Below, one piece after another: positions 2,407 to 5,808 of a DNA stretch of 42,781 nt. Under the pieces are notes generated by a model. It saw only the letters and a program-made list of their open reading frames with translations, had not been told where the DNA came from and searched no databases. The number at the start of each line of letters is the position of its first letter. The stretch's first letter is position 1. This DNA is from a virus, in the IMG/VR virus record IMGVR_UViG_3300030107_007093, positions 1-42,781 of that record; one strand, given 5' to 3'. A program made the position numbers and the translations under genes.

Positions 2407-2843
2407 TTAGCTATACCTAATTCTTTTTCTGTTAATATTTTAAATTCCAATCCTCTATCTAAACAGTATTCTTCTGCTGCCTTCCATTTTGCTTGATTCT
2501 TTGCATATTCACGCACTTCATAGATATATCCTCTTGTCTTCTTTTTTTGACGTTTTGGTTCCATACATTGTCTTAGAGGCTTTACTTCAATAATCATTTT
2601 TTTAATTTTACCAGTGTTTTCTCTTACCTTAATGTAAAAGTCTGGGAAGTATCTATGAACTCTATTATCTAAGGGAGATCTATAAGGAAGAAAGAATTCT
2701 TCACTTCCCCACTCTAAAATATTCTGATTACTATCACAATATTTCATGAACTTAAGTTCCCATAAAGAACGATAAATTATGTTTTTATAGTCACCTTTAT
2801 ACTTTAATGGGTTATTAGGTCTATATCTTCCTTTATAAGACAT
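2403..2843 (-). CDS. 4: Head completion protein gp4 (PD-(D/E)xK-like)
   Basis: The 146-aa product matches T4 gp4 (gp50/gp4), a head-completion protein needed before tail joining, in length and layout: an N-terminal SYKGRYRPNNPLKYKGD, then YRSLWELKF, RYFPDFYI and IIEVKP. The residues fit a PD-(D/E)xK nuclease core: E29 in WEL, D68 in FPDF, and E86-V-K88. In T4 the protein is thought to trim or finish the packaged DNA end. It is the first gene of the minus-strand group, and its promoter box (CATAAATA on the minus strand) lies 33 nt upstream, within the start region of the divergent tube-protein gene. Confidence 0.85.
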   Translation of the reverse strand: MSYKGRYRPNNPLKYKGDYKNIIYRSLWELKFMKYCDSNQNILEWGSEEFFLPYRSPLDNRVHRYFPDFYIKVRENTGKIKKMIIEVKPLRQCMEPKRQKKKTRGYIYEVREYAKNQAKWKAAEEYCLDRGLEFKILTEKELGIAK

Positions 2844-2850
2844 CTAAATA
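2844..2850 (+). promoter_or_regulatory. Late promoter box upstream of the tube-protein gene
   Basis: CTAAATA lies 31 nt before the ATG at 2882, immediately next to the start codon of the divergent gene 4. It fits the T4-type late -10 box. Confidence 0.6.
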
Positions 2851-2876
2851 CTTTATAATATAAAAATAATATAAGG

Positions 2877-2884
2877 TATTTATG
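2877..2884 (-). promoter_or_regulatory. Late promoter box upstream of gene 4
   Basis: The minus strand reads CATAAATA (7 of 8 with TATAAATA), 33 nt upstream of the gene 4 start. The box overlaps the ATG of the divergent tube-protein gene, so the two late promoters face away from each other across a 38-bp gap. Confidence 0.6.
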
Positions 2885-3520
2885 GCAACAGTAATCCAAA
2901 AGTTCAAAATGGATGTTTTGAACAGAACTGACATTACTAAACTGTCTTTAACAAATCAATATCAGGTAAACATTTCTGGAATTACAGGAACTCTTAAAAG
3001 TTATCTTGAAAATGTTTATAGTGTGGATGCTAATTATTTAAATGGTGCCATTGGTATTATGTGTTCTGAGGCCACCTTACCTTCTAGTTCATTTGCGACT
3101 GCAGAAGTTAAAGATAATTTTCAGGGTATAAATCAACAATTTGCCCACACTCGAATGTATCTTGATAGTGATTTTACATTTTATGTTGATAGAAAATATA
3201 ATGTACTTAAATTTTTTGAAGGGTGGATGGATTATATTTCGGGAGATAATAGAGTAGATGGTATTAATGGCTTAGCATCTCAAAATTATTATCGTAGATT
3301 TAATTATCCTATGCAATCATCTGATACTGTAGGATATAAATGTGGAACACTAGCAATTGCAAAATTTGATAGAAATTTTGAACATCAAGTAGCATATGAG
3401 TTTATAAATGCATTTCCTAAAGCTATGACATCAATTCCTGTGTCTTATGGAGATGCTGATATATTAAAAGTAACTATACAATTTGCCTATGATCGTTATG
3501 TAATGGGAGGTTGGAATTAG
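2882..3520 (+). CDS. T4 gp19-family tail-tube-fold protein (tube or tube-initiator)
   Basis: The 212-aa product has the layout of the gp19/gp54 tube-fold family: an N-terminal strand region (NQYQVNISGITG), the loop CSEATLPSSSFATAEVKDNFQGINQQFAHTR shortened here to its key part ATLPSSSFATAEV, then DFTFYVDRKYNVLKFFEGWMDYI and a C-terminal VTIQFAYDRYVMG. These features are typical of tube subunits that stack as hexamers. At 212 aa it is longer than T4 gp19 (163 aa). Because T4-like phages usually place gene 19 beside sheath gene 18, which is not in this window, this copy may be the gp54-like initiator instead of the main tube subunit. A late box lies 31 nt upstream. Confidence 0.7.
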   Translation: MATVIQKFKMDVLNRTDITKLSLTNQYQVNISGITGTLKSYLENVYSVDANYLNGAIGIMCSEATLPSSSFATAEVKDNFQGINQQFAHTRMYLDSDFTFYVDRKYNVLKFFEGWMDYISGDNRVDGINGLASQNYYRRFNYPMQSSDTVGYKCGTLAIAKFDRNFEHQVAYEFINAFPKAMTSIPVSYGDADILKVTIQFAYDRYVMGGWN

Positions 3521-3522
3521 TT

Positions 3523-3530
3523 GCTAAATA
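3523..3530 (+). promoter_or_regulatory. Late promoter box upstream of gene 26
   Basis: GCTAAATA sits between the two genes, 25 nt before the ATG at 3556, and matches the CTAAATA late box used elsewhere in the window. Confidence 0.6.
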
Positions 3531-3555
3531 ACCTTACTGAAGTGTATTAAAAATT

Positions 3556-4278
3556 ATGCCTTTACCACAAATATCTGCTCCGACTTATGAGTTGGTATTA
3601 CCATCGAGTAATAAAAAGATTAAATATAGACCTTTTTTAGTTAAGGAAGAAAAGATTCTAATCATGGCATTAGAATCGGAAGATACTAGACAAATCACTA
3701 CTTCTATAAAGACGGTGCTTTCAAATTGCATTTTGAGTAGAGGCATCAAAATTGATAAATTGGCTACTTTTGATATTGAGTATTTGTTTTTGAATGTTCG
3801 TGCCAAGTCTGTTGGTGAGACAGTAGAAGTGAATGTAACATGCCCAGATGATGGGGAAACACAGGTTGCTGTTGAAATTGATATTGATTCAATTAAAGTT
3901 AAGAAAGATCCTAAACATTCTAATATTATTAAATTAGATGAGAATTTGTCAGTGCAAATGCAATATCCATCATTAACACAGTTTATTGAATCTAATTTTG
4001 AGATTAATAGTCAAAAAAGTCAGGTGGATGAATCATTAAATGTAATTATGTCATGCATTAAGCAAGTATATAATGAGGATGAAGCATGGGATGCTACAGA
4101 ATGTACTAAGAAAGAATTGAAGGATTTTGTCGAACAGATGAACTCTAAACAATTTAAGGATGTTGAGGCATTTTTTGATACAATGCCTAAGCTTACTCAT
4201 ACTCTTAAGGTAACTAATCCTCAGACTAAAGTTGAGAATGAAGTTGTAATTGAGGGTCTTGCATCTTTTTTCAATTAG
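3556..4278 (+). CDS. 26: Baseplate hub assembly protein gp26
   Basis: This 240-aa protein resembles the T4 baseplate gp26 family: N-terminal PQISAPTYELVLPSSNKKIKYRPF followed by LVKEEKILIMALES (the family signature), a central FDIEYLFLNVRAKSVGE, and a V-x-V-x-C-P-D-D-G segment. In T4 gp26 takes part in hub assembly. It stands between a tube-fold protein and two tape-measure-like proteins, the place where other long-tailed phages keep the tail assembly chaperone. Its last codons contain T TTT TTC just before the AAT TAG end, which allows a -1 shift into a 62-codon extension (see 4266-4460). The family call is firm; a chaperone role is inferred. Confidence 0.8.
   Translation: MPLPQISAPTYELVLPSSNKKIKYRPFLVKEEKILIMALESEDTRQITTSIKTVLSNCILSRGIKIDKLATFDIEYLFLNVRAKSVGETVEVNVTCPDDGETQVAVEIDIDSIKVKKDPKHSNIIKLDENLSVQMQYPSLTQFIESNFEINSQKSQVDESLNVIMSCIKQVYNEDEAWDATECTKKELKDFVEQMNSKQFKDVEAFFDTMPKLTHTLKVTNPQTKVENEVVIEGLASFFN
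4266..4272 (+). promoter_or_regulatory. Predicted -1 ribosomal frameshift (slippery) site
   Basis: T TTT TTC, in the gp26 frame TCT TTT TTC AAT TAG, is a canonical X XXY YYZ slippery heptamer placed two codons before the gp26 stop. Slipping back one base opens a frame that runs to TAA at 4458-4460. A short AGC/GCT hairpin (4277-4286) lies just downstream; it is too small to call a stimulator with confidence. Confidence 0.7.
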
Positions 4279-4460
4279 CCCTGGCTCATGAAAGTTTGGA
4301 AAATTATTATAGAACAAACTTCGCCTTGATCCAGCACCATAAATATAGCTTAACAGAGTTAGAGAATATGATTCCTTGGGAAAGAGAAATTTATATTTCA
4401 CTTCTCCAACAATATATTGAAGAAGAAAATCTAAAACAAAAACAACAAAGTGGCATTTAA
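4266..4460 (+). CDS. C-terminal extension of gp26 made by -1 frameshift (GT-like)
   Basis: After the slip at 4266-4272 the ribosome would add 62 residues, from Q-L-A-L-A-H-E-S to K-Q-Q-S-G-I, giving a 301-aa fusion from 3556. The extension has no ATG near its beginning (only a TTG at about 4293-4297 and an internal ATG in NMIPWE), yet it reads like real protein: charged, helical, with YSLTELENMIPWEREIYI and a Glu/Lys/Gln-rich end. The L-x-x-L-E-x-M-x-P-W-E-R-E-x-Y pattern recalls C-terminal parts of tail assembly chaperones. Its end overlaps the GTG start of the next gene by 11 bp. Expression as a separate TTG-started small protein is the alternative. Confidence 0.65.
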   Translation, partial: FFQLALAHESLENYYRTNFALIQHHKYSLTELENMIPWEREIYISLLQQYIEEENLKQKQQSGI

Positions 4461-5808
4461 ATCGATTTTCAAAACTAAATCTTTATTACCGAAGATAACC
4501 AAAGTTTCTTCTTCAATTTTTGGTCGTCGTTCACCTGATAGTCCTATATTAACACCTTCTGGTACACCAGTTTCTGAAACATTAGTTGAAACTAATAATA
4601 TTCTTCAAGAGATACAAAAACAATTAGCTTTAGATTTTGCTTATAGAATTGCTAAAGAAGAAGAGGAAATAAAGGATATTAGAAAGACCACCGCCACTAT
4701 GAAAGGTGGTAAATTAGGTGGTGGGGAAAAAGATACTAAATTAGGTGGAGGTATTGGTAAAGTATTTCAGACTGTTACTGCTCCTGTAAGAGGTATTTTT
4801 AGTAGAATATTAGGATTTTTTGGATGGTTAGCAGCAGGGTTTGTTGTTAATAAAGGATTGAAATGGTTAGCTGCTAATCCGGGAAGAGTAGAGAAAGTTG
4901 TTGATTTTATATCTAAACATTGGGGAACAATTACAGGTTTAGTTATTGGGGGAGTAATACTCGATACTGTTCTTCGTCTTGCGGGTACCATTGCTCTCTT
5001 AAAAAGTGCTCTTGGATTACTTGGTATTGGTGTAGGTGGAAAAGCTTTAGGTGTAGCAGGTGCAGTTGCTGGTGGAAAGAAAGTTGGATTATTTACTAAA
5101 CTTTCTAGGTGGGGTGTAAAAACTACTAAGGCCGGCACTAGGTTTGGTGGAATGCCTGGTATTAACCCAATTCAACAATTCACTAGAACAAAAACTCCTT
5201 TATCCAGATTCTTACAAAGACAAAGGGTTACATCTAAGTTACTGGCACGTAATTTGAGATTACCCAAAACAAGAATAGGAGGAGGATTATTTTCTCTTTT
5301 AATGGGTGGTTTGGAGTATAAAGGTAGATTGGATGAAGGTCAAAGTCATTTACAAGCAGGGATGGGAACTGCTGGAACTATTGGTGGTGGAATGGCTGGT
5401 GCCAAAGGTGGAGCAATGGCAGGTGCTGCTATTGGTGCAATGTTTGGTGGTGTCGGTGCAGTTCCAGGAGCAGTAATTGGGGGTTTGATTGGTGGTATTG
5501 GTGGATCTTGGTTAGGTGCAAGAGCAATGGATTCAATGTCTGGGGTTAATGCAGGGAATCAATTATCTCAAAGAGAACTAAACAAACATGAAGATCTTTT
5601 CCACGATAGAGGTAATATGGGTGGTAATGTTAAGGTGATTAACGTGAATAAGATGGGAGAGGCTCCTCCTTCATTTGGTAATCCTAGTGAGGATTCTAAT
5701 GAAATGAACTTTCCTGATCCTTCACCAGAGGATAATTCTAATCCTAATATTGCATCTACTCAAAGTAATTTGGGTATATACACTAATGGCAGTTGGTCAT
5801 TTGGTTAA
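4450..5808 (+). CDS. Tape-measure-like virion protein with hydrophobic segments
   Basis: This 452-aa protein begins at GTG 4450, overlapping the frameshift extension of gp26. It has a basic N-terminus, a charged helical stretch (about 43-80, with IAKEEEEIKDIRK), Gly/Lys linkers, a hydrophobic motif RILGFFGWLAAGFVV at about 119-133, a second hydrophobic region at 158-200, and a very Gly/Ala/Met-rich part at about 325-368 (alternating G-G and A-G) before an acidic, Asn/Pro-rich tail. No catalytic motif is seen. Hydrophobic segments plus the place after tube and chaperone-like genes suggest a tape measure or hub-filling protein such as T4 gp29, but no T4 homologue is recognised by eye. Confidence 0.7.
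   Translation: MAFKSIFKTKSLLPKITKVSSSIFGRRSPDSPILTPSGTPVSETLVETNNILQEIQKQLALDFAYRIAKEEEEIKDIRKTTATMKGGKLGGGEKDTKLGGGIGKVFQTVTAPVRGIFSRILGFFGWLAAGFVVNKGLKWLAANPGRVEKVVDFISKHWGTITGLVIGGVILDTVLRLAGTIALLKSALGLLGIGVGGKALGVAGAVAGGKKVGLFTKLSRWGVKTTKAGTRFGGMPGINPIQQFTRTKTPLSRFLQRQRVTSKLLARNLRLPKTRIGGGLFSLLMGGLEYKGRLDEGQSHLQAGMGTAGTIGGGMAGAKGGAMAGAAIGAMFGGVGAVPGAVIGGLIGGIGGSWLGARAMDSMSGVNAGNQLSQRELNKHEDLFHDRGNMGGNVKVINVNKMGEAPPSFGNPSEDSNEMNFPDPSPEDNSNPNIASTQSNLGIYTNGSWSFG

Follow-up and report, generated by a model that had tools for sequence, protein, structure and literature searches.

The window, that is, the whole stretch of DNA analysed here, is an IMG/VR virus record of 42,781 bases, and all features described below lie on its plus strand. 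A gene for a tail tube protein (positions 2882-3520; PF23849, 3.6e-17; phrog_45, 3.4e-32) is followed by a gene for a 240-residue protein of the gp26 family ('baseplate hub subunit', TAC-N-like; positions 3556-4278; PF12322, 1.4e-70; phrog_150, 8.3e-77), whose PF12322 core scores 237.8 bits against a curated cut-off of 24.5. The first-pass annotation had pointed to a slippery heptamer, T TTT TTC, near the end of gp26, and this motif is indeed present (4266-4272). Its phase relative to gp26 is X XXY YYZ, and a single codon, AAT, separates it from the gp26 TAG (4276-4278). The window has 25 plus-strand ORFs of 100 aa or more, and none but gp26 carries an XXXYYYZ motif within its final 11 codons. 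The -1 frame is shut directly before the slip site by a TGA (4251-4253), and no start codon was found in that frame between this TGA and the slip. From 4272 onwards it stays open for 62 codons up to a stop at 4458-4460, and, as had been noted before, there is no ATG nearby: past the slip the earliest TTG is codon 9 and the earliest ATG codon 33. The predicted slip product is a gp26-gp51 protein of 301 aa in which the extension reads QLALAHES...QQSGI. The end of the extension is overlapped by the GTG start of the next gene (4450-5808), which encodes a Gly-rich, hydrophobic, tape-measure-like candidate. The placing of gp26 between tube and tape-measure genes, also proposed earlier, thus stands on the tube side, while on the other side the first downstream protein matches the tail length tape measure profiles weakly (phrog_167, 3.2e-7; phrog_794, 2.7e-6) and the second only marginally.

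The extension (4272-4460, TAC-C-like) matches phrog_634 (1e-29), the 'baseplate hub assembly catalyst' gp51, as well as the C-terminal part of phrog_150 at 1e-6. By sequence homology it is the C-terminal domain of T4 gp51, a relationship that the first-pass annotation had missed. Among relatives the extension is under purifying selection in the -1 frame, with a median dN/dS of 0.08, as the dN/dS check proposed for it was meant to reveal. Its treatment in deposited records varies: those of VH7D, S-CAM4 and S-MbCM100 (L086, L094 and L136) carry no annotation of the gp51 extension, and in other records it is annotated as a separate gene from an internal ATG.

Comparison of homologous loci, also suggested beforehand as a check, showed that in 116 related loci with the split arrangement (85 of them non-redundant) a T6 run precedes the gp26 stop by 7 or 10 nt. 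In 80 IMG/VR loci the extension lies in the -1 frame and T TTT TTC stands ten bases before the gp26 stop, the exceptions being L008 and L050. The site is kept in distant loci and in named phages of Vibrio, Aeromonas, Cronobacter, Stenotrophomonas, Sinorhizobium, Agrobacterium, Pelagibacter and Methylophilales hosts, with TTTTTTT or TTTTTTG replacing TTTTTTC in a few of these distant loci and named phages; a scan with the fusion of the Stenotrophomonas phage DLP6 found two loci and no more. Of all loci examined, those without T6 in place are L008, L050 and L108 (both with the upstream frame broken), Salmonella phage CRW-SP2 and one T4-type locus. In L050 (about 2700-3650) and L108 the gp26 frame is broken before the junction, probably by a sequencing or assembly indel, and the heptamer is still present in L050. 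The codons of the site are also constrained beyond the protein sequence. That is, among the 85 non-redundant split loci the first Phe codon of the heptamer is TTT in all 85 (74% elsewhere in the same genes) and the second is TTC in 80 (26% elsewhere), and these two codons rank first and second for least synonymous change among 230 codon columns, a ranking made within one common set of relatives so that kinship acts equally on every column. Judged from these alignments, conservation of the heptamer is far beyond chance.

Further signals that fit recoding are found on both sides of the heptamer. On the upstream side, the window carries GAGGG (4252-4256), an internal Shine-Dalgarno-like element and putative stimulator, 9 nt before the heptamer. 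In relatives, GAGG or AAGG about 9 nt upstream of the heptamer is synonymously favoured: the mean anti-Shine-Dalgarno energy 7-10 bases upstream is -7.5 kcal/mol versus -5.5 kcal/mol in synonymous shuffles, and Glu at this site is encoded as GAG in a ratio of 64:10, compared with 641:1463 elsewhere in the same genes. On the downstream side, the 42 bases following the heptamer fold better in relatives than their synonymous shuffles (mean z -2.88; control stretches -0.2 to -0.9), and 44 relatives have an 11-bp stem starting 5 nt past the heptamer, in which 92.5% of the cells are paired. In the window the corresponding place (4280-4299) has only a weak hairpin (z -0.28 against synonymous shuffles). 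One stem pair shows a T-A/G-C/A-T exchange among the 44 relatives. However, two-sided changes occur at only two stem pairs, a number also reached by 99 of 500 shuffles, and the sequences are related, so that the covariation is supportive but not conclusive. The consensus structure computed with RNAalifold contained zero pairs for two alignments, though the 11-bp stem, when specified, evaluates to -12.8 kcal/mol, and the case for the hairpin was built instead on folds of individual sequences against synonymous shuffles and on pair counts.

T4 itself offers a different arrangement of the same protein parts. In its genome (NC_000866) genes 26 and 51 are divergent neighbours with no heptamer, both products belong to PF12322 (8.8e-64 and 3.9e-52, respectively), and gp51 runs in frame into the extension, matching positions 13-280 of the 282 of phrog_150. 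T4 thus encodes its short and long products in two paralogous genes. One PF12322 gene was found per genome in the slip-site genomes examined, compared with two divergent ones in T4-type genomes (26 short, 51 in-frame long). No T6 was found in the T4-type gene 26 of the 11 loci read to the stop, where Phe-Phe is mostly encoded as TTC TTT; PspYZU05 does have TTT TTT, but an A precedes it, so that the X XXY YYZ pattern is not formed. Among the cyanophage-type loci there is a single in-frame gp26-gp51 fusion, located at 3001-3891 of L008 (IMGVR_UViG_3300049043_000112, 236 kb), a record with a single PF12322 gene. Here TTTTTTCGG is replaced by TTTTTGG, and since the site is shorter by 2 nt a one-base homopolymer error is ruled out. 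Two other arrangements were observed outside these groups. Campylobacter phage F379 (L092, 1356-2096) has core and extension in one in-frame ORF of 246 aa, and CRW-SP2 (Ackermannviridae; L091, 1438-2399) has a gp26-like gene and, behind it in the -1 frame, a short ORF whose ATG overlaps the stop (TAATG), with no T6 heptamer, an arrangement that could reflect either reinitiation or another slip site.

The L008 protein was also folded with AlphaFold in place of the window fusion, which is not present letter for letter in the DNA. The model is confident (pLDDT 91.4, pTM 0.87) and continuous through the junction. Its Foldseek matches are viral proteins of the gp26/gp51 family, including the Campylobacter F379 protein and gp26 of PspYZU05, which consists of the core alone. 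The fold search gave no PDB match at E <= 0.001, and a search by sequence found no solved relative either. Chaperones such as HK97 gp13 differ widely, so a missing PDB match does not exclude a similar fold.

Taken together, these observations indicate that a single gene of this marine T4-like virus almost certainly yields two forms of a helper protein for tail building, the second by way of a one-base ribosomal slip. Comparative sequence analysis shows the slip signal, the selection acting on it and the homology to T4 gp26/gp51, whereas frameshifting itself, how often it occurs and the chaperone role are inferred. Most ribosomes translating gp26 would end at the TAG at 4276-4278 and release the 240-residue short form, while a minority would shift back by one base at T TTT TTC and produce the 301-residue fusion, aided by the upstream GAGGG and, in most relatives, by the downstream hairpin as well. 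That frameshifting is programmed, as had been proposed from the window, is supported by the conservation of the heptamer, the constant -1 relation and the purifying signature on the extension, and also by the in-frame fusions (T4 gp51, the Campylobacter phage protein and L008) and by the phages that have two genes and no heptamer. We consider it very probable that the two products form a tail assembly chaperone pair, a role suggested by homology to T4 gp26/gp51, gene position and architecture. On the model of lambda gpG/gpGT, the short form would supply the bulk of the chaperone and coat the tape measure protein, while the long form would recruit tail tube subunits through its C-terminal domain.

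The extension could instead be expressed as a separate short gene 51, as most records annotate it, through termination at the gp26 stop and reinitiation at the ATG that follows it, or at TTG or CTG if there is no ATG. Internal starts are used in deposited annotations, and in 50 of the 82 relatives with a full extension the first ATG is extension codon 4, a few nt past the gp26 stop. This ATG, however, is preceded by no Shine-Dalgarno sequence (mean -0.8 kcal/mol, with none of 53 reaching -4) and sits inside the hairpin stem where the stem is present, and 24 of the 82, the window included, have no ATG, GTG or TTG within the first 8 extension codons. A conserved start codon belonging to the extension itself, which according to the first-pass annotation would speak against frameshifting, was thus looked for and did not emerge. 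Such a gene would also leave the heptamer unexplained, and T4 gp51 is fused to the core. On these grounds we rejected an independent gp51 start as a general explanation and regard it as very unlikely.

Slightly less probable still is that the frames are joined by transcriptional rather than ribosomal slippage on the T6 run. Runs of T6 to T8 do occur at the site in split loci, but the constraint falls on an exact X XXY YYZ in phase, with C as its last base in 80 of 85 loci, and a Shine-Dalgarno element and a hairpin lie at recoding distances from it. These features point to the ribosome, and T6 is a short run for transcriptional slippage. As for a chance origin, in which the heptamer would simply follow from the conservation of Phe-Phe and the extension would be a decayed piece, Phe-Phe is indeed almost always conserved in the protein, but the codons are held more tightly than the amino acids require, and the pair is written the other way round in most T4-type gene 26 copies. 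The heptamer codon choice and the low dN/dS of the extension already contradict such an origin, to which we attach a negligible probability.

Under ribosomal frameshifting, it is conceivable, although we would put it at somewhat less than an even chance, that marine T4-like phages carry a selected element of three parts, namely the internal Shine-Dalgarno, T TTT TTC and, 5 nt further on, a hairpin in which the gp51 ATG is hidden as well. In this view the element would have been lost in two different ways: in T4-type phages through duplication of the gene, and in L008 through a deletion of 2 nt that gave the in-frame fusion. A +1 slip at TTT-T in L008 could still produce a short form, ending at the TAG. 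The locus also offers a clean natural comparison between two products made via recoding, as predicted here, and two made via gene duplication. Marine gp51 has been described as lacking about 200 N-terminal residues and as being about 20% of T4 gp51 (Sullivan et al. 2010, PMC3037559). The predicted slip gives a simple account of this, the missing N-terminal part being gp26, to which the slip joins the extension; what Kyanoviridae, vibriophage and rhizobiophage records annotate as gp26 and gp51 should be one frameshifted gene.

The slippery heptamer of lambda is G GGA AAG, and T TTT TTC of the window differs from it. What is shared with lambda gpG/gpGT and other frameshift chaperones of long-tailed phages (Xu, Hendrix and Duda 2004, cited in PMC12859696) is a -1 slip shortly before the short form ends and a place behind the tube gene and, as far as the weak profile matches tell, ahead of tape-measure-like genes, whereas no sequence or fold relation of gp26/gp51 to solved structures was detected. 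The link to lambda-type chaperones is therefore made by gene position and recoding architecture and not by fold. Within T4-like phages the likeness is closer, the TAC-N/TAC-NC proteins being of the same gp26/gp51 family as in the window. The abstract of a 2022 study by Vladimirov, Gautam and Davidson reportedly names T4 genes 26 and 51 as chaperone genes. That study (Virology 566:9-15) identified the tail assembly chaperones of T4-like phages, and it is cited in PMC10885494 and PMC12846349. The proposal that T4 gp26 belongs to the chaperone class is thus upheld, together with gp51, but had already been published; frameshifting of this kind has been described for several T4-like phage groups, and the locus was rightly recognised without being new in kind. 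Polythymidine slippery sites are known in the TAC-N genes of T4-like phages (PMC12846349), and some of these phages have separate short and long genes (PMC10885494). T4 gp26 and gp51 are listed as hub assembly chaperones, gp51 being needed yet absent from the particle and reports on gp26 being in conflict (PMC3004832); they share PF12322 and the extension, in frame in gp51, with the window, but are encoded by two divergent genes without a heptamer. The TACs of Vandenendeviridae and Andersonviridae, although from other phage families and with the motif GTTTTT, likewise end TAC-N with a conserved polyT site for -1 slippage (PMC12846349).
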